Program-made: the position numbers and the translations under genes | Notes under the pieces: generated by a model | Databases searched by the model: none | What the model was told of the DNA's origin: nothing | Seen by the model: the letters and a program-made list of their open reading frames with translations, nothing else | In this document: positions 7,721 to 64,000 of the stretch, piece by piece | Layout of the letters: each line of letters starts with the position of its first letter | Position numbering within the stretch: position 1 is the first letter of the stretch | Assembly (NCBI RefSeq): GCF_014197105.1 | Contig: NZ_JACIEV010000009.1 | Span: forward strand, 62,001 to 126,000 | Length of the DNA stretch: 64,000 nucleotides | DNA from: Sphingomonas jinjuensis | GTDB taxonomy: Bacteria; Pseudomonadota; Alphaproteobacteria; Sphingomonadales; Sphingomonadaceae | Direction: 5' to 3'

Positions 7721-7845
7721 GGATAACGCTACACCTGGCGATCGCATCGCGCTCGTCCGGGACCGTCGGCGTCGTCCATGCCGAGTTCTCGCACCGTACC
7801 GGACGCGGGCCGATCAACCATGCTCAAGCATCCGGGTCAGCGTGG

Positions 7846-24134: not shown

Positions 24135-24225
24135 CGACGCGCGGAGCGACGTCGTCAGCAGAGGATCCACAATCGTGGCGCCAGCCGGCCGCCGCGCTTC
24201 CCGACACCGCAGAAGGAGAAATGCG

Positions 24226-39656: not shown

Positions 39657-39688
39657 GTTTCCTCCCATCCCGTTGCATGGTGCTTGTT

Positions 39689-39704
39689 GGTGTATATATA
39701 CACC
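39689..39704. promoter_or_regulatory. Palindromic operator-like site, copy B
   Basis: GGTGTATATATACACC, a perfect 16-base palindrome in the 74-base region between the divergent kinase and phosphoesterase genes. It matches the site at 36536-36551 in 15 of 16 bases. One dimeric regulator could control both directions here and the primase unit. Confidence 0.75.
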
Positions 39705-39730
39705 TGTGGCTATGCGTCAAGGGGCTTGGA

Positions 39731-46287: not shown

Positions 46288-46320
46288 GAGAGACTACCTT
46301 CATCGCGTTCGGCCGGTCCA

Positions 46321-47946: not shown

Positions 47947-48114
47947 CGATCTCCACCTCGCATCAACTCTGTTCCATTATACGATTGACGTTCGGCATTA
48001 CACCAGCAAATATCGCGGGAGGAGCGCTTGTCCTTGCTGATGAGAGGATGCCAAGCGGGCTCCACGAGCGCCAAGCCAGTGGCGAACCGCCAACCCCCAG
48101 TCAGTGAGACCCAG

Positions 48115-48912: not shown

Positions 48913-49029
48913 CCTCAGGTCGCCGGTGTCGGTCGCCTGCTTGACGGTCTCAGGCGCATGACGGACTGACCTCGAGGTCCCGACCGGTCCCGCGATTACC
49001 GGTCAGGGCCATCGCAGGACCGGGCACCA

Positions 49030-51219
49030 TCAGAAATGCACGCCGAGCGAAACGCCTGCGCTGCGCGGCGGCTGAAACACCGTCGTGTCGCCGTTGGTCG
49101 AAGGCACCACGCTGGCCGTGTAGAGCTGGTTGGTCAGGTTCTTGACGAACACGCCGACGGTGTAGCGGTCGCTCGGATCGGTCCAAGCAAGACGTCCGTT
49201 CACGATCTCATATGCGGGCTGTCGCACCCGGTTAAGTGGATCCCAGAAGTACTTCCCGCTGAAGAACATCGTCAGGTTCGCCGCCAGTGTTCCGCCGGCG
49301 AGCGGCGTCGTATAGTCTGCCGCTAGGTTGAAGGTATATCGCGGGGTCCGGATCATCCAGTTGCCCGACACGTCGGCAGCAGATTGCGTGTTACCTCCGG
49401 TTGGACGCGGAATGAACACGGTTGCGTTCGGAAACTCGACGTAATTCGCGTGGTTGTAGTTTAGCCCGCCGCGCAGCGTTAGGCCGTCAATCGGAGCCCA
49501 CGTGGTCGACGCCTCGAAACCATAGATACGCGCGCGTGCCGCATTCGCGAGCACCTGGCCAAGGCCGATGAACGCCGCAAACTGGATGTCCTTGTAATCA
49601 TAGTAGAAGGCCGCCGCCTCCATGCGAAGGTTCCGCGAGATCGACGTCTTGACCCCGGTTTCGTAGGCGTCGACCTTCTCGGGATCCACCGCCACGTTTG
49701 AGAAGCTGGCAACGTTGAACTGGCCGCTCTTAAAGCCCTGGCTGAACGAGGCATACAGCGACACGTCGCTGTTGGGCGCATATCGAAGCGAGACCCGCGG
49801 CGTTACATCCTTGAAGGTCTTCCGTCCGCTAACGTTGAAAGGCGGAACAACGACACCGGCCGCGGTCGTCGTCAGGCGGGTTCCATTGTAGATTTTGCGC
49901 TCGTTGCTGTAGCGGGCGCCGCCGGTCAGCTCGAACCCTGATCCCAGATTTGCGGTCACTTCGCCGAACAGGGCGAACGCATCTGACTGCAGGCGCTGAA
50001 ATTGATCGATCAACGTAAAGCTGGTGGCGGTCGCGGTTCCGGATACTACGTGTAGCGGATCATCCTTGGTCAGATTGTGGAAATAGTATCCGCCAACGAC
50101 ATAGTTCAGGCGTCGTGACCCGGTTGAGGCCAGCTGCACTTCCTGACTGAATGTCCGGGAAGGTCGGATCCAGGGGCCGATGTGCAAGATTGTCAAGGTC
50201 GAGACATCTGAGTCGGCCAATGCACTGAAGTCTGCTGCTTGATACGCAGAAATTGATTTGACCTGGGCGGCACCCAAGTCGAGTGTTGCGGTCAGATCTC
50301 CGCCATAGATGGTATTGAGGTTTTTTGGAATGAAGCTCAAGGCCGACTGACGCGGGCGGTTCGCGACCACGATCGGAACGCCGAGCCCTTTTGCGGCAAC
50401 GTTGCCGTTCAGACCCTGGGTTGAAAGCGCGGTGTTGTCGTCGAGGCGAGCATAGTTTCCGCCGACCACTACCGTCAGCTTGTCACTCGCATTGAGGAGG
50501 AGCTTGGAGCGGACACTGATATTGTCCTGTTTGGCAAGGTGCCCGCCACGGATGAGGTCGTCGACATAGCCGTCGCTTCTGGAATAGACCGCCGCGATGT
50601 TTACCGCCGCCTTGTCGCTGAGCGGTCCCGAACCATAGCCTTTCACAAGCACATTGTTGAACCGACTGTAGCTGATTTCCCCATCGAATGTGGGGGTGAA
50701 GCTTGGACTGCGCGTGATCACGCTGACCGCGCCGCCCGTTGCATTGCGGCCAAACAGGGTTCCTTGCGGGCCTTTCAGCACCTCGATACGCTCGATGCTG
50801 TTCAGATCGAATGCATTGCCGACCAGCGAGGGCTGATACACCCCATCGACGTAGATCGCGACGTTTGCCTCGTCGCCGACGCCTGAATTCACGGTTCCAA
50901 TACCGCGAATGGTCGGCTGGATAGCAACGCCGTTCTGGGTGAAGTTCAGGCCGGGGACGGTCAGGGTCAACTCCCGCGCGGAGACGATCCCGGACCGAGC
51001 CAAGTCATCGCCTGAGATGACCGACACGGATATGGGGACATCCTGCAAGGACTGCTCCCGACGCTGGGCCGTTACCACGATGTCGGCCAGGCCTTCGGTC
51101 TGCTGCTTGGCGGCCGCCGCTGAGGGTTCGGCGGCGGGGGCTACTTGCTGTGCCGCGGCGACACCGGTCACCGGCCACAACATTGCCGCTCCCACGCTCA
51201 GCATCCTGATCGTGTCCAT
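49030..51219 (-). CDS. TonB-dependent receptor of the catabolic cluster
   Basis: A 729-residue outer-membrane receptor starting at ATG 51219 (GGAGGGG upstream). A signal peptide ends near VAAAQQ. The TonB box region is LADIVVTAQRREQSLQDVP; the plug shows TVPGLNFTQNG, IRGIGTVNSG, IYVDGVYQPS and IEVLKGPQGTLFGRNATGGAVSV. The barrel ends PPRSAGVSLGVHF. This subfamily is common beside sphingomonad aromatic and terpenoid catabolic genes, and it probably imports the poorly soluble substrate. It is divergent from the MFS gene. Confidence 0.94.
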   Translation of the reverse strand: MDTIRMLSVGAAMLWPVTGVAAAQQVAPAAEPSAAAAKQQTEGLADIVVTAQRREQSLQDVPISVSVISGDDLARSGIVSARELTLTVPGLNFTQNGVAIQPTIRGIGTVNSGVGDEANVAIYVDGVYQPSLVGNAFDLNSIERIEVLKGPQGTLFGRNATGGAVSVITRSPSFTPTFDGEISYSRFNNVLVKGYGSGPLSDKAAVNIAAVYSRSDGYVDDLIRGGHLAKQDNISVRSKLLLNASDKLTVVVGGNYARLDDNTALSTQGLNGNVAAKGLGVPIVVANRPRQSALSFIPKNLNTIYGGDLTATLDLGAAQVKSISAYQAADFSALADSDVSTLTILHIGPWIRPSRTFSQEVQLASTGSRRLNYVVGGYYFHNLTKDDPLHVVSGTATATSFTLIDQFQRLQSDAFALFGEVTANLGSGFELTGGARYSNERKIYNGTRLTTTAAGVVVPPFNVSGRKTFKDVTPRVSLRYAPNSDVSLYASFSQGFKSGQFNVASFSNVAVDPEKVDAYETGVKTSISRNLRMEAAAFYYDYKDIQFAAFIGLGQVLANAARARIYGFEASTTWAPIDGLTLRGGLNYNHANYVEFPNATVFIPRPTGGNTQSAADVSGNWMIRTPRYTFNLAADYTTPLAGGTLAANLTMFFSGKYFWDPLNRVRQPAYEIVNGRLAWTDPSDRYTVGVFVKNLTNQLYTASVVPSTNGDTTVFQPPRSAGVSLGVHF

Positions 51220-51307
51220 TATTCCCCTCCATCGTTTCGTTATCTGAACTCCGTTTATAACTCCGCGAGGGCGCCGACAAGAATTTTCGTGGCGCAGGGG
51301 TCCGGAT

Positions 51308-51325
51308 CGTGCATAGCTATTCACG
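51308..51325. promoter_or_regulatory. Dyad in the TonB receptor/MFS divergent promoter region
   Basis: CGTGCATAGCTATTCACG, an 18-base palindrome with one mismatched pair around ATAGCTAT, in the 267-base gap between the divergent receptor and permease genes. It may be a regulator binding site for substrate uptake. It does not match the IclR-linked palindrome at 57708. Confidence 0.45.
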
Positions 51326-51486
51326 AATGGGAGTGGCGTTCGCTTTTTTGGACACGAGCAATAGTAGCTCACCGGCGGTGTTGGGCAGAATGCCAGGCGG
51401 TATGGTGCCCTGCCAACAGCCAGGACCGTTCCATGTGCCCCGGTCGAACTCCTGCAAAAGACATGATGTGCTAGAGGATTTTTAAG

Positions 51487-52764
51487 ATGGACGTAGAAGG
51501 GGGCTTGCTTGGAGGCCGACGCCTGTATGTCGTCGGTGTCCTGACGCTGGTGTATGCGGTCAGCATCATCGATCGCCAGATCGTGATCATCCTGCAAGAT
51601 CAGTTGAAGCTCGAGTTTTCCCTCAACGACAAGCAGCTCGGGCTGATGACAGGGCCGGCCTTCGTCGTTCTCTACCTTGCTGCCGGCCTCTTGATCGCGC
51701 CACTGGCGGATCGACATAATCGCAGAACACTGGTTGCAGCATCGGTCATCGTCTGGAGCGCGGCGACGGCTGCCGCCGGACTTGCCCAGAGTTACATCCA
51801 GTTGGTCCTGGCGCGGGCCGGCGTGGGTGTCGGCGAGGCCGGGTCGGGGCCAGCGGCCTATTCGATGATCGCGGATATGTACCCCGACGGCAAGCGCGGC
51901 CTGCCGACCTCGATTTTTTCGTCGGGCGTCTATCTCGGGATCCTGACTGGGTTGGCTGGAGGCGGATGGTTGGGTGCCATCTTGGGCTGGCGGCGAACGC
52001 TCGTGGTACTCGGCGTGTTTGGCTTGGCGGTCGGCGTTCTGGTCCGGCTGAGCGTCGCGGAACCAACGCGGCGCAGCACCGACCAGTCAGGCGCTGCGGA
52101 GCTTCCGTTCAGGGAGGTGGTCCGAACTTTGGGCGCTGCGCCCGGGATCATTCACCTGCTGATCGGCAGCTCGCTCTTCTCAATGGCCGGCAACGGCGCG
52201 GTCAGCTTCATGCCCCCATTCCTCCTCCGTCTCCACGCGATGGACGTGGCGCATGTTGGCCTTTGGCTCGGTATCATCATCGGCTGCGGCGGTGCGATCG
52301 GGTCGGCGGTCAGTGGAGTGGTCGCCGATCGGCTGTGCGGCAACGTGCTGGCGCGCTACCCGTTGCTCATCGGGTTCGCACTGCTCCTGGCCGTACCATT
52401 CTATGTCGCGGCGTTCCTCGCGCCGACCGGGGCTTGGGCGCTCGGACTGTTCGTCGTCCCCGCGCTGCTCTACCCTGTTTATCTGACTCCCTCGTTGATG
52501 GTGTTGTACCGCGTCGTTCCTCCCCGCGCTCGGGCGCGGGCAGTGGCGGTCCTTCTTTCGACCTTCACCGGCGTGGCGCTGGGCTTCGGCCCCATGGTCG
52601 TCGGCGCGCTCAGCGACTATTTCGGCGCCCGCATGGGGCCGGAAGGTCTGCGCATTGCACTGATCGTCAGCGTCTCGATCAGCAGCGCTTGGGCCTTGAT
52701 CCACTTCTGGCTCGCGCACGTGGCGATGCGGCGGTGTGCCGACTCGAACAGCGCGATAGCTTAA
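51487..52764 (+). CDS. MFS transporter
   Basis: A 425-residue inner-membrane permease with about 12 hydrophobic helices. It carries MFS loop motifs: DRQIVIILQDQLKLEF in helix 1 and APLADRHNRRTL between helices 2 and 3. ARAGVGVGEAGSGPAAYSMI is the motif-C-like helix typical of the spinster/AlgT-type subfamily frequent near sphingomonad catabolic genes. It likely moves the substrate or an acid intermediate across the inner membrane. The next gene follows after 48 bases. Confidence 0.9.
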   Translation: MDVEGGLLGGRRLYVVGVLTLVYAVSIIDRQIVIILQDQLKLEFSLNDKQLGLMTGPAFVVLYLAAGLLIAPLADRHNRRTLVAASVIVWSAATAAAGLAQSYIQLVLARAGVGVGEAGSGPAAYSMIADMYPDGKRGLPTSIFSSGVYLGILTGLAGGGWLGAILGWRRTLVVLGVFGLAVGVLVRLSVAEPTRRSTDQSGAAELPFREVVRTLGAAPGIIHLLIGSSLFSMAGNGAVSFMPPFLLRLHAMDVAHVGLWLGIIIGCGGAIGSAVSGVVADRLCGNVLARYPLLIGFALLLAVPFYVAAFLAPTGAWALGLFVVPALLYPVYLTPSLMVLYRVVPPRARARAVAVLLSTFTGVALGFGPMVVGALSDYFGARMGPEGLRIALIVSVSISSAWALIHFWLAHVAMRRCADSNSAIA

Positions 52765-52812
52765 GATCAGCACGCTCGCGTCGGTACGAACCCGCCGCAC
52801 CGATCGTTAAAA

Positions 52813-53775
52813 ATGGAAGGCGAAGACAGGATGGAACTCGAGCCCGAGACGAAAGAGCTGGTGGATCTCATCACCGCTCAAGGGCGGCCACCGTTCGCTG
52901 ACATGACACCGGCGGAGTTTCGATCGCTGCTGGTGGCGCCGCCATCCGCCCCAGCCGATGATGAGGCCATCGCCGACGTAAGCGACACGGTGGCGGCCGA
53001 GGTGCCCATCCGCATCTATCGCCCCCATCGGCCGGCCCGGGGCATCATGATGTATCTGCACGGCGGCGGGTTCGTCGTTGGTTCGATCGATGCCAGCGAC
53101 GCTGCCGCCCGCGCCATCGTTGCCCGCACCGACCTCGTACTGGTATCGGTCGGTTATCGCTTGGCGCCGGAAAATCCTTTTCCTGCGGCCGTCGATGATG
53201 CCTGGGCCGTGCTGGATTGGATACATCAGCACCGCGCGGGACTGGCGTTCGACGGCGCACCGCTGATGGTGGGGGGCGATAGCGCAGGCGCCAATCTGGC
53301 AACCGGGGCGGCGATCCACGCGCGCGACACTGGGATCAACCTATGCTTTCAGCTGCTCTTCTATCCCACCACCGATTGCGACTTCGACCGCCCGTCCTAC
53401 CACGATCATGCGGAGCAATGGCCGCTGCCGCGAGAGGCCATGCAATGGTTCTGGGGGCACTACGGAGCCGACGAAGCGGACTGGCGCGCCTGCCCTCTGA
53501 AGGCGGAAACGCTGCGCGGCGTCGCACCGGCCTATATCGCGGTTGCGAGCCACGATCCCTTGCGGGATGAGGGCCTCGCTTATGCCAAGCGGCTGGAGAG
53601 CGATGACGTCGCAGTGATCGTCGACGATGCTGCGGGCCTGCTGCACGGCTATGCATCGATGCTGCGGGTGTCGCCAGGTGCGCGTGCTGCGCTCGATCGT
53701 GGATGCGCCGCCCTGCGAGCCCGGCTCGATATCGTCGAGGCTCTTACCGAGCGATTGCCTTCGACCCAGAACTGA
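52813..53775 (+). CDS. Alpha/beta-hydrolase, HSL-type esterase
   Basis: A 320-residue esterase of the hormone-sensitive-lipase group (type IV). It has the oxyanion motif MYLHGGGFVVGS, the nucleophile in VGGDSAGANLA, the acidic residue in ASHDPLRDEG and the His in GLLHGYAS. There is no signal peptide. It probably opens the lactone or ester made by the Baeyer-Villiger enzyme. It follows the MFS gene and converges with the crotonase gene at 53812. ATG 52813 or 52831 may be used. Confidence 0.9.
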   Translation: MEGEDRMELEPETKELVDLITAQGRPPFADMTPAEFRSLLVAPPSAPADDEAIADVSDTVAAEVPIRIYRPHRPARGIMMYLHGGGFVVGSIDASDAAARAIVARTDLVLVSVGYRLAPENPFPAAVDDAWAVLDWIHQHRAGLAFDGAPLMVGGDSAGANLATGAAIHARDTGINLCFQLLFYPTTDCDFDRPSYHDHAEQWPLPREAMQWFWGHYGADEADWRACPLKAETLRGVAPAYIAVASHDPLRDEGLAYAKRLESDDVAVIVDDAAGLLHGYASMLRVSPGARAALDRGCAALRARLDIVEALTERLPSTQN

Positions 53776-53811
53776 AGTTCCCCCTGCGACGACGCCGCGG
53801 CGAGCCCGCGA

Positions 53812-54618
53812 TCAGGTGAAGTCGAAGGTGGGGGGCCGCTTTTCCAGGAACGCCATGCGCTTCTCCACCTTGTCCTGGGTCGACTGCGCGATGTGGACCC
53901 CGCGGCTTTCGAACTCGATCGCCTGTTCGAGGCTGCCCGCGTTCTGATTGTGCCACAATGATTGCTTCGTGACCCAGATGCCCATGGGAACATTCACCAC
54001 AATCCGTTTCGCCAATTCGATGCAGGCATCCTGCAACTGGTCGTCGGGTACGGTCTTCAACACCAGGCCGATCCGTTCCGCCTCGTCGGCCGGCACCGGA
54101 CGCGCTGTCAGCAGTATCTCGGCGGCGTGCTGAACGCCCACGGCCCGCGGCAACATATAGCTGATGCCGAGTTCGGCCCCAGATCCGGCATTATGGATCG
54201 AGTTGACGAACTTGGCCGATTGCGCGGCGATGGTGAGATCGGCAGCGAGCGTGAAGGCGAGCGCCATGCCCGCAACAGTGCCGTTGATGCCGCATATCAC
54301 CGGCTGCGGCAGGTTGCGGATGGCAACGGGGATCGCAGAGATCACGTCGAGCGTGTAGCGCGCCTGATACGCCTTCCCGACATCGTCCGGAACCCAGTCC
54401 GCCGCACCGCCGGCCTTAATGTCGTGACCGGCACAGAAACCACGCCCCGTGGCTGTCAGGATCACCACCCGGACCCGCGGATCGTAGCGGATCTCGTGCA
54501 ACAGGCCGAGCAGTTCCTTGTACATGGGGAAGGTGAACGCATTCATCGCGTCTGGCCGGCTGATGGTGATCCGCCGCACCCCCTGTTCAGGTTCGTCGAT
54601 CTGGAAATTGTCGCTCAA
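53812..54618 (-). CDS. Crotonase-family protein (enoyl-CoA hydratase-like)
   Basis: A 268-residue crotonase starting probably at TTG 54618, with GAGGACAGG just upstream. CoA-site and oxyanion features are FCAGHDIKAGG and INGTVAGMALAFTLAADL, and the C-terminal helices are intact. Neither canonical hydratase Glu is in place: the GCELAM-type position reads MALAF, and the second reads KFVNSIHNAG; a Glu occurs instead in SGAELG. Isomerase, hydrolase or lyase chemistry is therefore as likely as hydration. It is the last gene of the minus operon headed by the oxocamphor-hydrolase-like gene. Confidence 0.85.
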   Translation of the reverse strand: MSDNFQIDEPEQGVRRITISRPDAMNAFTFPMYKELLGLLHEIRYDPRVRVVILTATGRGFCAGHDIKAGGAADWVPDDVGKAYQARYTLDVISAIPVAIRNLPQPVICGINGTVAGMALAFTLAADLTIAAQSAKFVNSIHNAGSGAELGISYMLPRAVGVQHAAEILLTARPVPADEAERIGLVLKTVPDDQLQDACIELAKRIVVNVPMGIWVTKQSLWHNQNAGSLEQAIEFESRGVHIAQSTQDKVEKRMAFLEKRPPTFDFT

Positions 54619-54673
54619 GACCCTGTCCTCATGTACCTGGAAACGGTTGCATCCGGTCGGATGGCGCCGGCGC

Positions 54674-55837
54674 TCAGCGCGGCAGCCCCATAAGATTGGC
54701 GATGTTGTTGAGCTGGATGTTGGTCGATCCGCCCCAGATCGGCGTGACGAGGATGTCGCGGACATGCCGCTCCATCTGGAACCCGCGGGCATAGCCATAG
54801 GCGCCGAGGATTTTCTGGCACGTCAGTGCGATCTCGACCGCCGTTTCGGTGATGAACAGCTTCGCCATCGACGTCTCGGCGGCTGACGGACGCTTCTCCT
54901 CTAGCAGCCGGACGGCGTTGTAGAGCATGAGCCGACATGCCTCCAATTTGGTCTGCGCGTCCGCGAGTTGGTGGCGGATCGCCTGGTAGCTGCAGATCGC
55001 CTTGCCGCCCTGCCTGCGCTCCTGCGAATATTGCCACGCTTCCTCGACAACGGCTTCCGCGACCCCCAGCGCCAGAGCGGGCACTTCGAGCTTCTCGGCC
55101 TCGAGCGCGGGGCCGACCAGCATGGACCAGCCATTATCCCAACCCGACTCTCCGCCGACGACGAGGTCGAAGGGGATTTCGACGTCGTCGAGCGCCACGT
55201 CGTTAGTCGGAACGCCTTTGGCGCCCATCGTCTCGATCGACGTGATCGTGATCCCCGGCGAGTTCACCGGCACGATCACGAACGACAGGTTTTTACGCTT
55301 CGCCTCCGCGGGTCCACTGCGGACCAGCATGTAGATGTAGTCGGCGGTACTGGCACCGGTGCACCAGCGCTTAAAGCCGTTGATCACCACCGTGTCGCCA
55401 CGACGCTCGGCGCGCGTCTTCACATCGGCCAGGCTGGCGCCGGTGTCGGGTTCGGACAGGCCGTAGGCAAACAACAGCTTGCCCTCCGCAAGGTCGGGCA
55501 GGAAGCGCTGCTTCTGCGCCTCCGTTCCGCACTCGGCGATGTTGAGCGCGCCGTAGAAGGTCGCCTCGATGTAATAGGCCGCCAGCTGCATGCTGCGACG
55601 GGACAGTTCCTCGATCGTGACGACCATTGCGGTCAGATCGACTCCCGCGCCGCCATATTCCTCGGCCACCGAGACGTGAAACACGCCCAATTCTGCGAGC
55701 TTCGCCATGAACGGTCGCGGTGGGATAAGGTCGTCGCGGTCCCACGCCTCGACCATTTCTCGCGTTGCTTCCTTTTCCAGGAACCGCCGTATGTTCTCGC
55801 GCAGGCTGGAGATATGATCGGGTTCGATGAGGCTCAT
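54674..55837 (-). CDS. Acyl-CoA dehydrogenase
   Basis: A 387-residue flavoenzyme that introduces an alpha,beta double bond into an acyl-CoA. Signatures are AEEYGGAGVDLTAM, GLSEPDTGASLADV (FAD/substrate loop), INGFKRWCTGASTADY, ILGAYGYARGFQMERHVRD and the final IWGGSTNIQLN. The common C-terminal catalytic Glu (YEGT) is Gly here, so the base must be at the alternative position as in isovaleryl-type enzymes. ATG 55837 lies 32 bases after the preceding crotonase stop. Confidence 0.93.
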   Translation of the reverse strand: MSLIEPDHISSLRENIRRFLEKEATREMVEAWDRDDLIPPRPFMAKLAELGVFHVSVAEEYGGAGVDLTAMVVTIEELSRRSMQLAAYYIEATFYGALNIAECGTEAQKQRFLPDLAEGKLLFAYGLSEPDTGASLADVKTRAERRGDTVVINGFKRWCTGASTADYIYMLVRSGPAEAKRKNLSFVIVPVNSPGITITSIETMGAKGVPTNDVALDDVEIPFDLVVGGESGWDNGWSMLVGPALEAEKLEVPALALGVAEAVVEEAWQYSQERRQGGKAICSYQAIRHQLADAQTKLEACRLMLYNAVRLLEEKRPSAAETSMAKLFITETAVEIALTCQKILGAYGYARGFQMERHVRDILVTPIWGGSTNIQLNNIANLMGLPR

Positions 55838-55869
55838 TATCTGACCTTGAAGATGGAAGCGGAGGCGGA

Positions 55870-56670
55870 TCAGTTTCCGCTGAACTTGGGCTTTCGCTTG
55901 TTCAGGAATGCGTCGACGGCTTCGCGGTGATCCTCGGTATGATTGGACATGCCTTCGTACGCGAAGCCGACATCCAGCATGCTCGCCGCGATCTGCTTCA
56001 ATCCGGTATTGATCGTCATCTTCGTCCACTGGATCGAACGCCGCGCACCGTTGGCGAAGCGATCCGCCCATTCGGCAACCTTGGCGTCAAGTTCGTCCGC
56101 GGGCACCGAGAAGGTGATGAGGCCGATCTGCGCCGCCTCCGGCGCCATGATGACGCCGCCGGCAAGAAGATATTGTTTCGCACGCATGTAGCCGATCAGT
56201 TGCGGCCAGATCGCCGCACCGCCATCGCCCGCCACATAGCCGACGCGCGTGTGCGGGTCCGCGATCTTCGCGGTGTCGACCGCCACCACTATATCGCAGA
56301 ACAGCGCCAGCGTCGCTCCAAGACCGATCGCATCTCCGTTCATCCGGCAAATGATCGGCTTGGGACAATCGAGCATGCTCATCAGCGTCCGCTTACCCTC
56401 AACCACCGACGTGTAATAATAGGACGGCTGCTCGGTCGATCGACGCATGTGCTCGATATCGCCGCCCGCGCTGAACGCCCTCCCCTCCCCGGTCAGAATT
56501 GCAACATCCACCTCGGGATCGTCCGCGACGTCGATAAAGATGCGGCTGAGTTCGTAATGCATCAGCTGACTGGCGGCGTTCAGCTGCTCCGGCTTGTTCA
56601 TCGAGATGGTGAGAATGCGCCCATTCTGGGTACAGAGCAGCGTCTCGTAGCGCGAATAATCAAACGTCAT
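55870..56670 (-). CDS. Crotonase-family protein (enoyl-CoA hydratase-like)
   Basis: A 266-residue crotonase from ATG 56670. It has FSAGGDIEHMRR, MNGDAIGLGATLALFCDIV and then DPHTRVGYVAGDGGAAIWP, in which a His and an Asp take the region usually holding the second Glu. This block is like the one in its upstream neighbour, although the His of the NGPALRH segment is absent. It is co-transcribed, with 19 bases between the genes, and may be a hydratase or a ring-opening hydrolase. Confidence 0.87.
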   Translation of the reverse strand: MTFDYSRYETLLCTQNGRILTISMNKPEQLNAASQLMHYELSRIFIDVADDPEVDVAILTGEGRAFSAGGDIEHMRRSTEQPSYYYTSVVEGKRTLMSMLDCPKPIICRMNGDAIGLGATLALFCDIVVAVDTAKIADPHTRVGYVAGDGGAAIWPQLIGYMRAKQYLLAGGVIMAPEAAQIGLITFSVPADELDAKVAEWADRFANGARRSIQWTKMTINTGLKQIAASMLDVGFAYEGMSNHTEDHREAVDAFLNKRKPKFSGN

Positions 56671-56689
56671 GGTAGTTCCTTTTCGCGGT

Positions 56690-57445
56690 TCAAGCGATCG
56701 CATGGCCTTCCATCGCGAAGCCGTAGCCAAGTGAATCGTGAAGTGCTGCGCGCAAACGCTGGGTCAGCAGCACGCGAGTGTATCGCCGGACCAAGGGAGG
56801 CGTTCGCAGCAGCTGATGCGCGAGCTCATACGCACGGGGCATGAGGCGATCACCCGCCAGGACCTCGTTCACCAGCCCCGCCTCCCTCGCTTCGGCAGCG
56901 GACAGGCGCTGTCCCGTCATTAGGAAGTACCGGCCGCGATTGGTGCCCATCAGGAACGGGAAGATCACGCCATGCCCGTCCCCGGGCACCAGGCCGCCGG
57001 CGAAATGCGCCGAGTCCTGGAAAGCGGCCGTATGGGCGGCAAGGACCAGATCGCACATCACCGGGATGATCGCGTGCCGCAAAGCCGGCCCGTTGACCGC
57101 ACTAATCATCGGCACCTCGATGTTCAGCATGTTCATGACGTAGCGCTTGCCCTCGACCCCCATCCAGTACCAGTCGTCGGCAGGGACCTGCATCGCGACG
57201 GAACGGTCGGCGGCGCCGTAGACGGCCGGCCCGGAGAACTCCTCTCCCGTGCCGGTGACGATCACCACCTGGTTCTCGCGGTCGCGCGAGATGTCGAGGA
57301 AAGCCTGCTCGAGCTCCTTGTGGGGCGCGAGGCTCCAGCGGAGCGGGCCACCGTCGGTGTGCAGCTGCATGAGGAGAATGCCATCCTCGTCCCGAGAAAG
57401 GCGGATCATCTCGAACTTGTTTCGGTAAGCGTCGAAGTCCGTCAT
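56690..57445 (-). CDS. 6-Oxocamphor hydrolase-like beta-diketone hydrolase
   Basis: A 251-residue crotonase-fold protein closely resembling 6-oxocamphor hydrolase (CamK) of Rhodococcus, which splits a cyclic beta-diketone by retro-Claisen hydrolysis without CoA. Blocks match from memory of that protein: DRENQVVIVTGTGEEF, IEVPMISAVNGPALRH, IPVMCDLVLAAHTAAFQD, HFAGGLVPGDG and GTNRGRYFLMTGQ. The catalytic set is kept with a constant offset of two: His124, His147, Asp156 and Glu246 here for His122, His145, Asp154 and Glu244 there. It leads a four-gene operon (this gene, crotonase, acyl-CoA dehydrogenase, crotonase). An operator-like palindrome lies in the upstream gap. Confidence 0.82.
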   Translation of the reverse strand: MTDFDAYRNKFEMIRLSRDEDGILLMQLHTDGGPLRWSLAPHKELEQAFLDISRDRENQVVIVTGTGEEFSGPAVYGAADRSVAMQVPADDWYWMGVEGKRYVMNMLNIEVPMISAVNGPALRHAIIPVMCDLVLAAHTAAFQDSAHFAGGLVPGDGHGVIFPFLMGTNRGRYFLMTGQRLSAAEAREAGLVNEVLAGDRLMPRAYELAHQLLRTPPLVRRYTRVLLTQRLRAALHDSLGYGFAMEGHAIA

Positions 57446-57753
57446 GCCGGCTCTCCACGAACGCGTACGGAATTGCGTCGACGAAGCAGCGGCACGCCCG
57501 ATGCGGCAAAGCCAGATCGCGCGCGCTTCCGAGCACCAGTAGAGCGAACCTTCATCCGGCCCATCACGTAGCGAGCCAAGTGCAGAAGGTCAGGCTGCCT
57601 GGCTGTTCGTGCGCACGCCGCCCTCATGATGCCGTAACGTTATCTGGAAGCTTGCAGTCTGTTGCGCGCATGACGACCGACACATCCCCGTAGCCGAGAA
57701 CGCGTATTACGAACGCCGTTCGTATTTAGCAATAGCTTACACTTGCGGTGGTC
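57446..57753. other. Upstream region of the hydrolase operon
   Basis: 308 bases between the oxocamphor-hydrolase-like start and the IclR gene's stop. No supported gene. It contains the palindrome at 57708-57724 and an AT-rich stretch (ATTTAGCAATAGCTTACA) beside it; the promoter is probably here. Confidence 0.5.
57708..57724. promoter_or_regulatory. Operator-like palindrome, probable IclR-type binding site
   Basis: TACGAACGCCGTTCGTA, a perfect 7-3-7 palindrome, followed by TTTAG. It lies about 260 bases upstream of the hydrolase operon. A related sequence, ACGACAGTCGTATTT, lies upstream of the divergent IclR and acyl-CoA synthetase genes (58715-58729). IclR proteins typically bind such palindromes. 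Confidence 0.6.
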
Positions 57754-58629
57754 TTAGGTTTGGTCGAGCCTCTGGGCATGTTCCGTGCTGATATAGCCGG
57801 ATGCTCGCCGCGCGACCTCGGTGACGAGATGCTGGAATACCGGCAGGTTCTGCTTCAATCGCTCGGTCGGTGCTGCGATCAGCAACGCGGCTTCGACGTT
57901 GCCCTGCGGATCGAAGATGGGCGCCGCGATTGCGCCGCCGCCCTCCACCGCCTCATCGAGCGAGATGGAAACCCCGATGCTCCGGATCGCAAGCAAACCC
58001 GTACGGATCGCAGCCGGGTCCGTGGTGGTGCGCGGCGTGATCGACGTTAATTGTGCCTCGCTGAAGTAGCTCTCCTGCCAGTCGCTGTCTTGGTAGGCTA
58101 ACAGCAAGCGCCCGGCCGCGGTTGCATGCAGCGGACGTACGAAGCCGATTGGCATTGCGAAACGCACGGCCTTCGCGCTGGCTACCGTGTCGATAAAGGT
58201 GGTGACCTTGGCCTCGCGGTCGAGAACCGCCAGGTAGACCGTCTCCTGAGAGCGTTCGGCAAGTTCCTTCAAGAAAGGTCGTAGCTGCCGCAGCAGCCCT
58301 CGGGTTGAGAGAATCTGCGCTGCCAGCCGGTACATCGGTGGCCCAAGTAGATAGTCGCCGCTCACGCGCATCAGGTAGCCTGCGGTGACAAAGGGGCGGA
58401 TCAGTCCGAGCAGGCTGCTTTTGGGAACCCCCAATTCGCCGCTGAGCTCGGCCAGTGACCGTCCGTCGCTGTTTCGGGCCAAGATCTCCAGCATCCCGAT
58501 GATGCGGGCGACCGATCGCGGCGGCGAAGACGCGCTGCCGCCGCCGGCACCTGCATCCTCCAATGAAGCACGCGAACCAGGCCGAAGCTCGGCCGACTTC
58601 CCAGTACGTTTCGATGATGCTTCTTTCAT
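57754..58629 (-). CDS. IclR-family transcriptional regulator
   Basis: A 291-residue regulator from ATG 58629. The winged HTH is SVARIIGMLEILARNSDGRSLAEL and LGVPKSSLLGLIRPFVTAGYL. The effector domain has QETVYLAVLDREAK, RPLHATAAGRLLLAY, GVSISLDEAVEGGGAIAAPIFD. The N-terminal 38 residues are a low-complexity extension. It is divergent from the acyl-CoA synthetase gene and most likely controls the catabolic cluster in response to a pathway intermediate. Confidence 0.93.
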   Translation of the reverse strand: MKEASSKRTGKSAELRPGSRASLEDAGAGGGSASSPPRSVARIIGMLEILARNSDGRSLAELSGELGVPKSSLLGLIRPFVTAGYLMRVSGDYLLGPPMYRLAAQILSTRGLLRQLRPFLKELAERSQETVYLAVLDREAKVTTFIDTVASAKAVRFAMPIGFVRPLHATAAGRLLLAYQDSDWQESYFSEAQLTSITPRTTTDPAAIRTGLLAIRSIGVSISLDEAVEGGGAIAAPIFDPQGNVEAALLIAAPTERLKQNLPVFQHLVTEVARRASGYISTEHAQRLDQT

Positions 58630-58714
58630 GGCGCAAGCATGGCCGCTTCTGCCTGCCGTGCCAACTATGTTCTCCAACCAACACAAAGCATTTCAACGTC
58701 TTTGCAATTTTCGC

Positions 58715-58725
58715 ACGACAGTCGT
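58715..58725. promoter_or_regulatory. Short palindrome in the IclR/acyl-CoA synthetase divergent region
   Basis: ACGACAGTCGT, followed by ATTT, in the 230-base gap between the divergent genes. It shares the ACGA-N-TCGTATTT pattern with the stronger palindrome at 57708-57724. It may be the autoregulatory site of the IclR protein. Confidence 0.4.
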
Positions 58726-58859
58726 ATTTCCGAATGCGCCGCGCTATCGGCGGCCTTCACTGTTCTCAATTCCAGCTTGGAGCGCCCTGACCGATGAACG
58801 GCTCACACCAGTCCGCCAGACCGCATCTCGCCGATCGAGTTGCGGCCGGGAGAGGTGCG

Positions 58860-60431
58860 ATGCCTGATTACGGGACTACGACGATAACAGCCGCGTTCGC
58901 CGCGTCAGCGGCGAGGAACGCGAGCCGGCCCGCCGTTCGGCAGGGGATGCGCGAGATCAGCTTCGCGGAAGTGGATCAGCTGCGCCGCGACGGCGCTCGC
59001 GGACTGATTGCTCTCGGCATCCGGCCTGGTGAGCGCGTGGCGATCTGGGGCGTGAACAGCTTGGATTGGATCGTTGCCGGGCTCGCCCTGCTAACGGTCG
59101 GCGCCGTGCTCGTTCCCGTCGGCACGCGCCTGCGTGGGCGCGAGGCCGGTGCGATCCTGCGCAGCGCTGACGTTCGACTGATCTTCACGGATCACGGATT
59201 CGGCGGCTACGACTTCGTCGACGCGATCCACAGCGAGAGCCTGCCCAAGCTCGAGCACATCGTGGTCCTTCGCAGCGACGCGGAAGCTGCCGGGCAAGTC
59301 CGGGGCTGGTCGTCGCTGGTGCGGGCGGGTGCCGGTGTTGCCGCGCAGGAGGTGGATCGACGCGCCGGGGCGATCCGCCCCGACGATCTGTCCGACGTGC
59401 TTTTCACGTCCGGCACGACCGGCCAGCCGAAAGGCGTCATGATGACGCATGCCCAAAGCATCGTTGCCTGCGACCACCAAGCGCGTGCGCTGGGAGCGCG
59501 GTCCGACGACGTGCTTGGCGCGCTGTTTCCGTTTGCGCACAACGCCGGATACCGGTCCGCCTGGCAGACTTCGCTGCTTCTCGGCATGCGGATCGACCCA
59601 ATCGACGTCGTCAACCCAGACGATCTGCTCCAGTTCGTTCAGGCCAATCGGACGACGTTGCTACCGGCGGTACCCACCGTTTACCAATCTCTGATCGAGC
59701 ATCCGGCACGTCGCGACATGGACCTGAGCAGCCTGCGGGTGGCGATGACCGGCGGAACCATGGTCCCGATGCAGCTGATCTTCCAGATTCGTGAGCAGTT
59801 GGGCATTCCACACATTGTGAATGCGTACGGAATGACCGAGACTGCGGGCAACATCTCCTACACCCGGGCCGGCGACAGCGACGAAGTGATTGCGCGCACC
59901 GTTGGCCGGCCGCTCGAAAACCTCGAAGTGCGGATCGTCGACGACAACATGCGTCCACTCGCGCGCGATATGGTAGGTCAGATCGCGGTGCGCGGCTTTC
60001 AGGTGACCCACGGCTACCTGAACGATGCCCCGGCGACCGCGCGGAGCATGACCCAGGACGGTTTCCTTCTGACCGGTGACATTGGCTTGCTAGGTGCGGA
60101 CGGCAATCTGAGAATAACCGATCGCCTGAAGGACATGTACATCTGCGGGGGTTTCAACTGCTATCCAGCGGAGGTTGAAGAGGTCTTTCGCAAGATGCCG
60201 GGTGTTTGGCAGGCGGCGGTGGTGGGCATGGACGACGCCCGGCTCGGCCAGGTCGGCCGGGCGTTCATCGTCGCTGAGCCAGGCCTTCGGCTGAACGAGC
60301 AGGAAGTGATCGCCTGGGCGCGGGAGAACATGGCGGGTTACAAGGTACCCCGCGTCATCCGCTTTCTCGACGCATTGCCGCTCAACGCTCTCGGCAAGGT
60401 GAGCAAGGACGAACTTCGCCAGCTAGACTGA
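58860..60431 (+). CDS. Acyl-CoA synthetase (AMP-forming)
   Basis: A 523-residue adenylate-forming ligase that activates a carboxylic acid with ATP and CoA. It has the P-loop FTSGTTGQPKGV, the A5 segment NAYGMTETAGNIS, the A7 hinge TGDIGLLGADGNLRITDRLK, the A8 part MYICGGFNCYPAEVEEVF and the A10 lysine in NALGKVSKDEL. ATG 58860 has GGGAGAGG upstream. The FadD3-like C-terminal wording suits a cyclic or branched acid. It is divergent from the IclR gene and converges with a crotonase gene. Confidence 0.92.
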   Translation: MPDYGTTTITAAFAASAARNASRPAVRQGMREISFAEVDQLRRDGARGLIALGIRPGERVAIWGVNSLDWIVAGLALLTVGAVLVPVGTRLRGREAGAILRSADVRLIFTDHGFGGYDFVDAIHSESLPKLEHIVVLRSDAEAAGQVRGWSSLVRAGAGVAAQEVDRRAGAIRPDDLSDVLFTSGTTGQPKGVMMTHAQSIVACDHQARALGARSDDVLGALFPFAHNAGYRSAWQTSLLLGMRIDPIDVVNPDDLLQFVQANRTTLLPAVPTVYQSLIEHPARRDMDLSSLRVAMTGGTMVPMQLIFQIREQLGIPHIVNAYGMTETAGNISYTRAGDSDEVIARTVGRPLENLEVRIVDDNMRPLARDMVGQIAVRGFQVTHGYLNDAPATARSMTQDGFLLTGDIGLLGADGNLRITDRLKDMYICGGFNCYPAEVEEVFRKMPGVWQAAVVGMDDARLGQVGRAFIVAEPGLRLNEQEVIAWARENMAGYKVPRVIRFLDALPLNALGKVSKDELRQLD

Positions 60432-60526
60432 TCACTAAGCGGGCGAGACACTCGGAGACGTGCTCGCCCGGCGAAAATACGATTTCCAACCTCTGCGGAG
60501 CCGCCTGGATCGGTCTGCCTCCGTCG

Positions 60527-61429
60527 TCAGCGATGACGGATCCGCACGAAGCCATCACCGAACGGCGCATCGCGGTTCTTCAGCGCCTCCTTCAGGCCGT
60601 GCTCGGCCATGTCCTGCTTGAAGCGGCTCCGCCTTGGCCCCTTCGACAGGTGGGAACGCGCATCATTTTCGGCAGCAAGTCGCTGGATCGTCAGCGCGCC
60701 CATCTGCTCGAGCGCGAGGTTGACGATCCGCTTGTGCGTCCAGAGCAGTTCGGGGTCGACCGCCGCCACCCGGCGTGCCAGATCCTGCACTTCGGCATCG
60801 AGTTCGTCGGCGGGAACCGCGTCGAGCACAAGACCCAATCGCGCCGCATCGATGCCGGACACCTTGTCGCCGGTCAGCAACAGCCGCTTCGCCCACTGCG
60901 GTCCGCAGTGATAGATCCACATGTGCGCCGGTGGAGAGCCGTTGGCACGCGTCGCCGGAAAGCCGATCTTGGCATCCTCCGCCGCGATTAGGAGATCACA
61001 CGCAAGGGCAAGATCGGTTCCGCCCGCAAGGCAGTTGCCATGGATCTTGGCGATTACCGGCTTATGTAGCTGCGACAGCGTCATCGTGGCATCGAGGCTG
61101 CGCTCGAGCCGCCAACTGTCGTCGTCCAGCGTCTGGTTGACCGTCCGATACTGGATCGCGCGGCCGGACTGATCCTCCGCCATGCCGTTGTAGACGCCGA
61201 CGAGATCATATCCCGCGCAAAAGTCCTTTCCGGCCCCCTGCAGCACGATGCAGTGAACGTCAGTGCGGTCGTCCGCCTCGAGCAACGCGCCCCGAAGCTC
61301 GGCCATCATCTCGTCGCCGAGCACGTTGCGCTTCTCGGGCTGGTTCAGCGTGATGGTCGCGATCTGGTCGGCGACCTCAAAGAGAATACGTTCCGGCTGC
61401 GACAGCCATTTTCCTCGGTATTGCGTCAT
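60527..61429 (-). CDS. Crotonase-family protein (enoyl-CoA hydratase-like)
   Basis: A 300-residue crotonase from ATG 61429. It has LNQPEKRNVLGDEM, KDFCAGYDLVGVYNG and HGNCLAGGTDLALACDLLIAAE. The second-Glu position reads GFPATRANGSPPAHMWIYH, as in crotonases of steroid-type pathways, so the standard hydratase pair is not complete. The C-terminal 45 residues are longer and charged (SHLSKGPRRSRFKQDM). It lies 113 bases behind the paired acyl-CoA dehydrogenase genes, same strand. Confidence 0.88.
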   Translation of the reverse strand: MTQYRGKWLSQPERILFEVADQIATITLNQPEKRNVLGDEMMAELRGALLEADDRTDVHCIVLQGAGKDFCAGYDLVGVYNGMAEDQSGRAIQYRTVNQTLDDDSWRLERSLDATMTLSQLHKPVIAKIHGNCLAGGTDLALACDLLIAAEDAKIGFPATRANGSPPAHMWIYHCGPQWAKRLLLTGDKVSGIDAARLGLVLDAVPADELDAEVQDLARRVAAVDPELLWTHKRIVNLALEQMGALTIQRLAAENDARSHLSKGPRRSRFKQDMAEHGLKEALKNRDAPFGDGFVRIRHR

Positions 61430-61542
61430 GTTCGCTCCTAGAATTGATATGGCGGCGAGCCGGAGGGCAGGTTGCAGTCGCACTGGGTTGGTCGGCAAAG
61501 CGGCCAGGGTCACGCTCCCGTGCGTCGCCTGCCGCTGGCCGC

Positions 61543-62748
61543 TCAGGCGCGGGGCAGGCCAAGGAAGCGCTCGGCCACGATGTTGCGCATGATCTCGTTG
61601 GATCCCCCGGAGATCGTCCAGGAAAAGCTCTTGAGGAAGTCCAGCGCGGGAACGCCGCTGCTGTGGCCTGTGCAGGCAACCGGCGGTTGCCACTCCTGAT
61701 CGACCAGACCGCCGGCGCGGACCAGAAACTCCGTATAACGCTGGAGCAAGGGGGCCCAGTAAAGCTTGATATAGACCGGCAACGTCGCCAGCCTGCCTTC
61801 CTCGCTCTCCTCCGTCATGCTCAGCAAACGACCGATCATCAGGCGCACGGTCAGCAGTTCCGCGTGGAACGAGGCGAATTCCCGACGCAAGCCGACGTCG
61901 CTGAGCCATGAAGGCCGCGTGACCTGGCTCAGCTTGCGGTACCCCTGCCACACCCGCTCCGCATAGCTGAGCAGCAGCAGGCCGCGTTCGGACGACAGCG
62001 TGGACTGGGCGATCGCCCAGCCGCGATTTTCGGCGCCTATACGGTTCGACGCCGGAATGATGACGTCGTCGAGGAAGATCTCTGCGAACTCGCCCTCTCC
62101 GGTGATCTGTCGGATCGGACGCACAGTGACGCCCGGTGATCGCATGTCGAGGATGAACAGTGACAGGCCGTCGTGTTTGCGTGCGGCGTGCGGGTCGGTC
62201 CGGACCAGCAGCAGGCAATAGTCGGCATACATCGCGTAGGACGACCAGGTCTTCTGCCCGTTGACCACATAATGGTCCGCGTCGCGCGCCGCCGTCGTCC
62301 TGATCGAAGCCAGATCCGATCCGGCGCCGGGCTCCGAAAAACCCTGACACCAGACGTCGTTTCCGTCGCGCACGCCGCTCAGGTACAGATCGCGCTGTTC
62401 CTGGGTGCCCGCGTCGAACAGCGTCGCGGGCAGATGGAACAGCGATATGAGCATCAACTCCAGCTCCGGCGCGTCCGCTCGTGCCATCTCCTCATAGGCG
62501 ATGATCTGCCGCGAGAACGGCAGGCCGGGGCCACCCCACTCACGTGGCCAGTGCGGCGTAGCGAGCCCGACCTTCCGACGCTCCTCAAGCCACCACAGCT
62601 GAAAGCGGTTCACGTCCTCTTCGGTGGCGCCTTGCAAGCGGGTCCGCCAGTCGGTCGGCAAGGCGTTGGCCAACCACGCCTGGACGCCACGCCGAAAGGC
62701 GTCGTCGTCGGTGAGCCCAGTGAGCAGCCTCGAACCAGGGTTAGCCAC
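61543..62748 (-). CDS. Acyl-CoA dehydrogenase, catalytic-type subunit
   Basis: A 401-residue enzyme starting at GTG 62748, which overlaps the upstream stop (TAGTG). It has PREWGGPGLPFSRQ, GFSEPGAGSDLAS, VNGQKTWSSYA, ITGEGEFAEIFLDDV and the closing SGGSNEIMRNIVAERFLGLPR. A Glu in TLSSERG sits where isovaleryl/steroid-type enzymes have their catalytic base. Its sequence style matches the steroid FadE-type subunits that form heterotetramers with an adjacent gene product. Confidence 0.92.
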   Translation of the reverse strand: MANPGSRLLTGLTDDDAFRRGVQAWLANALPTDWRTRLQGATEEDVNRFQLWWLEERRKVGLATPHWPREWGGPGLPFSRQIIAYEEMARADAPELELMLISLFHLPATLFDAGTQEQRDLYLSGVRDGNDVWCQGFSEPGAGSDLASIRTTAARDADHYVVNGQKTWSSYAMYADYCLLLVRTDPHAARKHDGLSLFILDMRSPGVTVRPIRQITGEGEFAEIFLDDVIIPASNRIGAENRGWAIAQSTLSSERGLLLLSYAERVWQGYRKLSQVTRPSWLSDVGLRREFASFHAELLTVRLMIGRLLSMTEESEEGRLATLPVYIKLYWAPLLQRYTEFLVRAGGLVDQEWQPPVACTGHSSGVPALDFLKSFSWTISGGSNEIMRNIVAERFLGLPRA

Positions 62749-63827
62749 TACGCGGCCTCAAGGAGGTCGGCAACGCGGTCAAGGAGGCCCGCCCCGGTCT
62801 CGAACAGCGCCTCATCGAGCTTTGCGCGTTTCAGGTACAGATGTGCCGGATGCTCAGCGGTGAAGCCGATCCCGCCGAACAACTGTATGCAATCGCGCGT
62901 GACATCAGCCGCGACCCTGGCGATCTGCGCCTTGGCGGAGATCGCATTCAGGAGACCGTGATGATCTTCATCATCCATCGCCGCGACGTAGGCCAGGAGT
63001 TCGCGCGCCCCGACCAGCGCGGTGCTGTGGTCGGCCAACCGATGCTTTAGCGCCTGGAACGACCCGATCACCTTGCCGAACTGCTGCCGGGTCTTGAGAT
63101 AGTCGATCACACTTGCCAACGCCGACTCCGCCGCGCCGAGGGCATCCGCCGCCAGCGCGATCGCCGCATGGCGAAGCAGGTGATCCGCCACCCTGCCGGG
63201 ATCGGGCGGCAGGATCCAGGCGTCATCCTCGACCGCGACCTCGTCCAGCACGACCTCGGCAGCAGATCGGCTGGGATCGACAAGGCGGCGCGGCACCACG
63301 AGCACGCCGGCAGCGCTTGCCTCGATCGCCACCCAGCCTCGTCGGCCGCGCCGCTCCGCCGCAAGCAGGAAAAGGTTCGCGGCGCCCCCGTCAAGAAGGC
63401 CTCGCGCATGGCCGCTCATCCTCGCTCCGTCACAACGCAGGGCCGGCATTGCAGGCTGGGAGATGGACGCACGAACCGAGCCGCTTGCGATCAGTGGCAG
63501 CCAGCGCTCGCGCTGCGCCGGCGTACCGGCATCTCCGATCAACGCTGCGGCCAGCGTGGTGTCAAGCATCGGCACAGGGGCAACCGCTGCACCGAGCGCC
63601 AGATAGAGCCGCGCCATGGCCGCCCGGCTAAGACCAAGGCCGCCATGCTCCTCCGCGATCGTCAAGGCAGGCCAGCCGAGCTCGATGACCGAGCGCTGCA
63701 ATCCCTCGTTCGTCGAAATGGCGGCAGGATCGCCGGAAGCGAACGCCACCGCCCGTTCGATCGGCCATTCCGCCCTTAGCAGATCGGCAAAGCTTTCGGA
63801 CAGAAGATCCAGATCTGCGTCGCTCAT
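62748..63827 (-). CDS. Acyl-CoA dehydrogenase, partner-type subunit
   Basis: A 359-residue protein from ATG 63827. It shows AEEHGGLGLSRAAM, a shortened middle domain without the SEPGAGSD loop, TRQQFGKVIGSFQALKHRLAD, and a final QLFGGIGFTAEHPAHLYLKRAK. The Glu of the SSERG position is not present (ALAADALGAAESAL). It is translationally coupled to the next gene, so the two are likely subunits of one alpha2beta2 enzyme in which only one partner is catalytic. Confidence 0.9.
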   Translation of the reverse strand: MSDADLDLLSESFADLLRAEWPIERAVAFASGDPAAISTNEGLQRSVIELGWPALTIAEEHGGLGLSRAAMARLYLALGAAVAPVPMLDTTLAAALIGDAGTPAQRERWLPLIASGSVRASISQPAMPALRCDGARMSGHARGLLDGGAANLFLLAAERRGRRGWVAIEASAAGVLVVPRRLVDPSRSAAEVVLDEVAVEDDAWILPPDPGRVADHLLRHAAIALAADALGAAESALASVIDYLKTRQQFGKVIGSFQALKHRLADHSTALVGARELLAYVAAMDDEDHHGLLNAISAKAQIARVAADVTRDCIQLFGGIGFTAEHPAHLYLKRAKLDEALFETGAGLLDRVADLLEAA

Positions 63828-64000
63828 GCGACCGTTTCCCCGCGCGCCAACGTGGAATCGCCGGACAGTTGATTGAAGCAACTACAGCTGGCGACATCGA
63901 CCGTCTGCACGACCGACAGTCGCCGCCATTTCGATGATCTGCAAGATCGATCCATTTAGCGGAACGCGCTCCAATAGCCTCTCACGGGCACTTTGCACCG
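63828..64000. other. Right window edge, upstream of the acyl-CoA dehydrogenase pair
   Basis: 173 bases without a supported gene; probably the promoter region of the three-gene minus operon (two dehydrogenases and crotonase). No palindrome matching the other sites was noticed. Confidence 0.35.

Follow-up and report, generated by a model that had tools for sequence, protein, structure and literature searches.

A predicted retro-Claisen β-diketone hydrolase in an island-borne catabolic cluster of Sphingomonas jinjuensis

We analysed a 64,000-nucleotide stretch of a Sphingomonas jinjuensis contig (hereafter, the window), in which the gene for a protein resembling 6-oxocamphor hydrolase (OCH) lies within a cluster of catabolic genes (Table 1). 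The original prediction had given this open reading frame the same coordinates that we find. The OCH-like gene is the first of a one-strand set that continues with the genes for two crotonases and an acyl-CoA dehydrogenase (ECH1, ACAD1 and ECH2); with the start codons that we selected, successive genes lie 19, 32 and 55 bases apart. The Baeyer–Villiger-type gene, the two SDR genes and the CoA-type β-oxidation genes that had been listed as its companions are all present in the cluster, with the Baeyer–Villiger-type gene approximately 8.7 kb from the OCH-like gene and opposite-strand genes in between. The cluster continues beyond the window end on the same contig, where we found a second CoA ligase, a glutaryl-CoA dehydrogenase paralogue, an SDR, a further crotonase (ECH4) and an NMO-family gene, as well as a phosphotransferase-family gene adjoining an acyl-CoA dehydrogenase gene. 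It spans 26.9 kb from the first SDR gene to the NMO-family gene. A further glutaryl-CoA dehydrogenase, 72% identical to the paralogue in the cluster, is encoded on contig C11. A promoter and terminator scan returned no signal above that of shuffled sequences.

Table 1 Features of the window and of the island that extends beyond it
Feature	Coordinates	Strand	Remarks
comM/yifB halves	window 6842–7747 and L010:18204–19055	− (both)	
Island part in window, inserted in comM/yifB	7721–64000		68,697 bp in all, to contig position 138417; ends AACCTGTT / AACCTGCT
Five long island ORFs, putative genes	8768–10405, 24175–27192, 27383–29542, 34730–36520, 39677–41473		No Pfam (0.001) or PADLOC match
Trypsin-like domain fused to DNA/RNA non-specific endonuclease	16943–18895	+	On island
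SIR2-domain protein	30088–31833	+	Matches candidate defence family PDC-S65 at 3.2e-235
SDR	45559–46287	−	
Type I Baeyer–Villiger-type monooxygenase	46321–47946	−	Nearest phenylacetone and steroid monooxygenases; Gln161 at signature His (FGGDWYQTSLWP)
SDR	48115–48912	+	Closest solved relative 3-alpha-hydroxysteroid dehydrogenase 2dkn, E 4.1e-41
TonB-dependent receptor	49030–51219	−	
MFS transporter	51487–52764	+	
Alpha/beta hydrolase, hormone-sensitive-lipase type (Abhydrolase_3)	52831–53775	+	Candidate esterase
ECH2, enoyl-CoA hydratase family	53812–54618	−	TTG start chosen; 68% identity to Azospirillum B510 gene
ACAD1, acyl-CoA dehydrogenase	54674–55837	−	ECH1–ACAD1 adjacency also on Neorhizobium and Rhodococcus plasmids
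ECH1, crotonase	55870–56670	−	H, G, H, D, E at OCH positions; 19 bases from OCH-like gene
OCH/ABDH-type β-diketone (retro-Claisen) hydrolase, predicted	56690–57445	−	251 aa, ATG start; H42, H124, H147, D156, E246
IclR-family regulator	57754–58629	−	Directly upstream of OCH-like gene
FadD3-like acyl-CoA ligase	58794–60431	+	563 bits, below curated cut-off of 657
ECH3, crotonase family PRK08272	60527–61429	−	Above cut-off
ACAD2, acyl-CoA dehydrogenase	61543–62748	−	Possible ACAD3 partner
ACAD3, acyl-CoA dehydrogenase	62748–63881	−	Weak PimD and IpdE2 matches, far under cut-offs

The entire catabolic cluster lies inside an island that splits comM/yifB, so that the C-terminal half of this gene starts at window position 7720 and the N-terminal half ends at contig position 138418. 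Compared with the intact comM of a relative (G418), the two halves overlap by eight bases, and the two copies of this overlap, one reading AACCTGCT and the other AACCTGTT, form an 8-bp near-repeat. The C-terminal half was matched in 59 of 61 same-genus genomes, and in ten of these, the genome of the window included, its open frame is at most 382 residues long. These short frames suggest that comM/yifB may be a recurrent insertion site, with contig ends as an alternative cause. The island also carries a serine recombinase and a transposase with rve and HTH_21 domains, which we call IS3-like. Elsewhere in the genome, contig C14 (L169, L170) holds a second catabolic-looking cluster, in which a P450, a crotonase and a transferase of the succinyl-CoA:3-ketoacid type are accompanied by homologues of a CoA ligase and of a TonB-dependent receptor.

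By sequence and by predicted fold, the OCH-like protein is a crotonase that is nearer to OCH and to the β-diketone hydrolase ABDH than to enoyl-CoA hydratases. In a phmmer search of all PDB sequences, it matched OCH (1o8u) with an E value of 6.6e-68 and ABDH with 2.2e-61, and a clear gap separates these from the next crotonase, at only 3.4e-26. Superposition of an AlphaFold2 model built from 47 sequences (mean pLDDT of 93.7) gives Z scores of 39.0 for the OCH structure 1szo (1.2 Å across 241 residues), 38.2 for the OCH structure 1o8u, and 35.7 and 35.5 for ABDH. Mycobacterial crotonases (3rrv, 3q1t and EchA15) come after these at Z scores of 29.7 or lower, with 3q1t and 3rrv the next by fold among the 50 entries listed. 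Family profiles are less specific: Pfam assigns the protein to the general crotonase family and nothing else, and it falls below the curated cut-off in every one of the 25 NCBIfam families listed among the 59 matched.

The original prediction rested on His124, His147, Asp156 and Glu246, which were said to match the active-site residues of OCH at a constant offset and to set the protein apart from ordinary enoyl-CoA hydratases. The phmmer alignment to 1o8u bears out the match: the four residues align with H122, H145, D154 and E244 of OCH, the offset being 2 throughout, and H42 is paired with H45 of OCH. We take H45, H145, D154 and E244 of OCH to be catalytic, and the PDB title of 1szo describes a His122Ala mutant of OCH. 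The known catalytic residues of ABDH, given as D153, H144, E243 and H43 (PMC3584854), map to D156, H147, E246 and H42 of the OCH-like protein in the phmmer alignment, in which the chain is numbered ten higher. We compared 106 family rows, comprising 104 gathered here together with OCH and ABDH (L062 was left out for stops). All five residues are retained in 101 of these rows, OCH and ABDH among them, whereas L022, L026, L027, L034 and L056 miss one or more. Because the five residues are kept so widely, the match is not a chance one.

The claim of separation from ordinary hydratases holds for one of the four residues. The neighbouring crotonase ECH1 has H, G, H, D and E at the five OCH positions; because it thus shares H147, D156 and E246, these three are not diagnostic, whereas H124, which is replaced by glycine in ECH1, is. 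A second difference lies in the [AG]G-x-D motif, which is located at the first oxyanion-hole loop of enoyl-CoA hydratases. The motif is found in all five crotonase paralogues that we compared, ECH1 among them, and is missing from 102 of the 106 family rows, including the OCH-like protein, OCH and ABDH. Where the compared crotonases have this motif, the OCH-like protein reads SGPAV. What sets the OCH-like protein apart from the five compared crotonases is H124 and the loss of AG-x-D alone, since the remaining four residues are present in ECH1 as well.

These two differences bear on the simplest alternative, in which the protein is an ordinary enoyl-CoA hydratase or isomerase, dependent on CoA, whose OCH-like residues were retained by descent. 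Such an enzyme would be expected to match Pfam as a general crotonase and to score below the NCBIfam cut-offs (in the 25 of 59 matches listed), as this one does, and in ECH1 four of the five residues are found in a protein from outside the OCH clade. Given that OCH and ABDH are nearest in both sequence and fold, with a clear gap, and that H124 is present and the [AG]G-x-D of the compared crotonases absent, we regard an ordinary hydratase as very unlikely. ECH1 itself has as its second-best PDB match 3q1t, a Mycobacterium avium protein annotated as an enoyl-CoA hydratase and predicted to be a β-diketone hydrolase, which shares the D, H, E and H of ABDH (PMC3584854). Because of this match, ECH1 may be a C–C hydrolase too, a prediction that builds upon another prediction.

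To place the protein among its relatives, we built a family tree of 102 rows and scanned gene contexts within 8 kb of the OCH-like gene at 96 loci. OCH and ABDH fall into one 20-row clade (support of 97/88), whereas the window protein belongs to a separate 48-row clade (98/97). Within the latter it is part of a six-row group (99/89) with L043, L044, L046, L049 and L050, on a long branch of its own (0.54). The family rows span many phyla. To our knowledge, OCH and ABDH are the only characterised proteins among them, and we know of no activity assigned in the clade of the window protein. The sister rows of OCH are L107, L012, L014 and L016. Three of the four come from other genomes of the window's family, and one of these three belongs to its own genus. 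Each of the four corresponding contexts (L107, L035, L037 and L040) has a P450 homologue within 8 kb.

These results weigh on the camphor lead that came with the original prediction. If the OCH-like protein were the orthologue of OCH, in a cluster degrading camphor or a close bicyclic monoterpenoid, its residues and fold would be the same as those of OCH, as is the case. However, 118 of 241 aligned residues are identical between the two proteins, and, unlike the contexts of OCH's sister rows, the island holds no P450 match; the four matches in the genome lie on contigs C3, C8 and C14. Because the clade of the protein is well supported and excludes OCH and ABDH, we do not consider it an OCH orthologue, a relationship that appears extremely unlikely, and camphor is not indicated. 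We therefore discarded a camphor pathway on the basis of the family tree and because no P450 match falls within the island.

Among the closest relatives, L043, L044, L046 and L050 have a thiamine-diphosphate (ThDP) enzyme and a 3-hydroxyisobutyrate-dehydrogenase-like gene within 8 kb of the OCH-like gene, whereas L049 has none of the panel genes within this distance. Because the neighbours of these four relatives differ from the window's gene set, a change of substrate or a recruitment of the gene may have taken place. The trio recurs across Acidobacteriota and Pseudomonadota. We rejected an equivalent ThDP partner for the window protein, as its genome encodes just three distant homologues (27–30%), and we also rejected cyclohexane-1,2-dione hydrolase as the identity of the relatives' ThDP enzyme, since acetolactate synthases rank first in the PDB for the enzyme of L044.

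More broadly, the oxidation genes beside family rows are very varied and include molybdenum hydroxylases, ThDP enzymes and P450s, the place being taken in the window by a Baeyer–Villiger-type enzyme. In a ten-row group beside that of the window protein, a molybdenum hydroxylase adjoins in eight rows (all except L031 and L055), and a Baeyer–Villiger monooxygenase homologue lies within 8 kb of the OCH-like gene at 2 of the 96 loci (L064 and L067). A cyclase-family gene directly adjoins the OCH-like gene at four of the 96 loci (L029, L031, L057 and L098), three of which also have a molybdenum hydroxylase. Dihydrophloroglucinol cyclohydrolase, a member of the cyclase family, is described as catalysing the retro-Claisen opening of a cyclic 1,3-diketone (PMC10470551), and these four loci may therefore encode two-step diketone cutters. 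The sole cyclase-family match in the window's genome is on contig C22, off the island.

The Baeyer–Villiger-type enzyme has full-length similarity to type I enzymes, with E values of 5.3e-194 to phenylacetone monooxygenase (residues 3–530) and 1.2e-185 to steroid monooxygenase. Type I enzymes carry the signature FxGxxxHxxxW(P/D), from which the window enzyme departs by a glutamine in place of the histidine. We compared 11 homologues encoded by other genomes of the order: the signature histidine is present in 3 and replaced in the remaining 8 (by L, M, M, F, R, R, R and K). The homologues at L064 and L067 carry the histidine. Because the missing histidine is common in this subgroup, Baeyer–Villiger activity of the window enzyme is not to be assumed. 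A precedent for a ketone-to-ester step is the type I enzyme of Caenibius tardaugens, described as converting progesterone to testosterone acetate (PMC12239570).

Together with the FadD3-like ligase and the SDR resembling 3-alpha-hydroxysteroid dehydrogenase, the likeness of this enzyme to steroid monooxygenase prompted a steroid lead. The match to FadD3 scores 563 bits against a cut-off of 657, and that to IpdE2 scores 98 bits against 450, both below the threshold. Four CoA_trans matches occur in the genome, on contigs C3 and C14, and none in the island; one subunit was tested per place, with no IpdAB positive control, and the best match was to succinyl-CoA:3-ketoacid transferase, with the IpdA structure 6co6 at 1.3e-6 (C14). 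The failure of this search to turn up an ipdAB-type transferase weakens a steroid-type reading, and steroid C/D-ring (HIP) degradation was set aside on this result and on the scores under the cut-offs.

The same search bears on a further alternative, in which the OCH-like protein cleaves a β-diketone carried as a CoA thioester, as EchA20/ScdY does at steroid ring D. The set that includes ACAD1, ECH1 and ECH2 is of CoA type, and the cluster also encodes several acyl-CoA dehydrogenases, the FadD3-like ligase and a protein of the NMO family. A crotonase that acts after IpdC and opens a ring of a CoA intermediate has been described, and orthologues of echA20, ipdA and ipdB are reported from steroid clusters of Sphingomonas KC8 (PMC6678751). 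However, OCH and ABDH are the nearest relatives by sequence and fold, a reference cited by PMC3584854 describes ABDH in its title as coenzyme A-independent, the [AG]G-x-D motif is absent, and no ipdAB-type transferase was found among the CoA_trans matches on C3 and C14, for which one subunit was tested per place. We consider a thioester-cleaving enzyme of this kind rather unlikely; nevertheless, given that the OCH-like protein is surrounded by enzymes of CoA thioesters and has four of its five residues in common with ECH1, its substrate could be CoA-linked.

The catabolic genes recur in part in other genomes. Homologues of ECH2, ECH3, ECH4 and the NMO-family protein are grouped in Azospirillum sp. 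B510 (L173; 68, 63, 70 and 62%, respectively) and also occur together in G333, a genome of the window's family (L181; ECH2 68%). This grouping is the strongest sign that both halves of the cluster belong to one pathway, and on this evidence the cluster as a whole looks like a single pathway. The OCH-like gene was not found in either of these ECH2–NMO stretches, and that of G333 sits on another contig. The plasmid pl1WSM5005 of Paraburkholderia sprentiae has homologues of the OCH-like protein (43%), ECH1 (57%), the IclR-family regulator (41%), an SDR (45%) and ECH3 (59%), scattered over about 35 kb beside P450 and GMC oxidoreductase genes.

Within the order, the full combination appears to be particular to this genome. 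Across 396 genomes of the window's order, its own counted, the OCH-like protein was matched in 15 (E ≤ 1e-40), ACAD1 in 22 (1e-100), the Baeyer–Villiger-type enzyme in 16 (1e-180) and ECH2 in 4 (1e-70); at these cut-offs, all four were found together in the window's genome only, and so were the OCH-like protein and ACAD1 as a pair. The whole gene set was present in no named relative covered by our panel scans, which took in plasmids of Paraburkholderia, Pseudonocardia, Caballeronia, Arthrobacter, Sphingobium TKS and Novosphingobium, and further Neorhizobium, Rhodococcus ZPP, Sphingobium cloacae, Sphingobium JS3065, P. sprentiae, Azospirillum B510, Cupriavidus, Variovorax and Sphingobium TomTYG65. 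At the DNA level, positions 45559–63881 matched one plasmid record, over 4% of the query at 72.9%. The TomTYG65 lead, which came from tomato saponin degraders (PMC10653915), showed no link to the window's pathway. Our searches of the open-licence literature likewise returned no description of such a cluster, in agreement with the original prediction.

Overall, sequence, predicted fold, catalytic residues, the lost motif and gene context support the proposal of a retro-Claisen β-diketone hydrolase in a CoA-type catabolic cluster. We favour as probable the reading that the OCH-like protein is an OCH/ABDH-type, CoA-independent hydrolase, whose opening of a cyclic 1,3-diketone would supply the substrate for CoA-dependent degradation. 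In OCH, a His/Asp pair activates water, with stabilisation by the equivalents of H124 and E246. By analogy, H147 and D156 of the window protein would activate a water molecule for attack on one carbonyl of the diketone, H124 and E246 would hold the tetrahedral intermediate or enolate, and the C–C bond between the carbonyls would break to give a keto acid without any cofactor.

In the pathway that we propose around this hydrolase, the SDRs would produce the ketone groups, and the OCH-like/ECH1/ACAD1/ECH2 unit, perhaps under control of the IclR-family regulator, would cut the ring and begin degradation. The resulting acid would be activated by the FadD3-like ligase or the second CoA ligase, and the acyl-CoA dehydrogenases, crotonases and second glutaryl-CoA dehydrogenase would complete its degradation. 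The Baeyer–Villiger-type enzyme and the esterase-like hydrolase may serve to remove a ketone side chain or to open another ring. The growth substrate, at a guess, is a polycyclic isoprenoid or another alicyclic compound. A more elaborate version, which we think unlikely, would have the OCH-like protein and ECH1 act as tandem retro-Claisen hydrolases, one on a free and the other on a CoA-bound diketone. They would open two rings successively, as steps of an undescribed pathway on the island that degrades a polycyclic isoprenoid and also employs a Baeyer–Villiger-type enzyme lacking the signature histidine.

The enzyme type is already known, the catabolic island looks conventional, and the find is not surprising in principle; the clade, however, has no characterised member known to us among the rows used. 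A characterised member would provide a C–C bond hydrolase for diketone ring opening. It would also give a name to the catabolic island, whose genes otherwise have matches to general enzyme families only.

Among known systems, OCH (1o8u/1szo) shares with the window protein its fold, all five residues and the absence of the [AG]G-x-D motif, and differs in sequence (118 of 241 aligned residues identical), in clade and in that the window's island has no P450 match. ABDH (alr4455 of Anabaena; 2j5g/2j5s) also shares the fold, and its catalytic residues D153, H144, E243 and H43 are matched, but 105 of 238 aligned residues are identical and ABDH sits in OCH's clade. Crotonases of the M. avium 3q1t/EchA15 type come next by fold after OCH and ABDH among the entries listed and are among the best PDB matches of ECH1; unlike the OCH-like protein, the 3q1t-like ECH1 has glycine in place of H124 and retains the AG-x-D motif. 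Dihydrophloroglucinol cyclohydrolase catalyses a reaction of the type proposed here, although it belongs to an unrelated family and is described as Mn-dependent (PMC10470551). Finally, the pdc progesterone monooxygenase of C. tardaugens is, like the window's Baeyer–Villiger-type enzyme in sequence, of type I; it is described as acting on a steroid methyl ketone and as part of a four-gene cluster (PMC12239570), whereas the window enzyme differs by its glutamine at the signature histidine.
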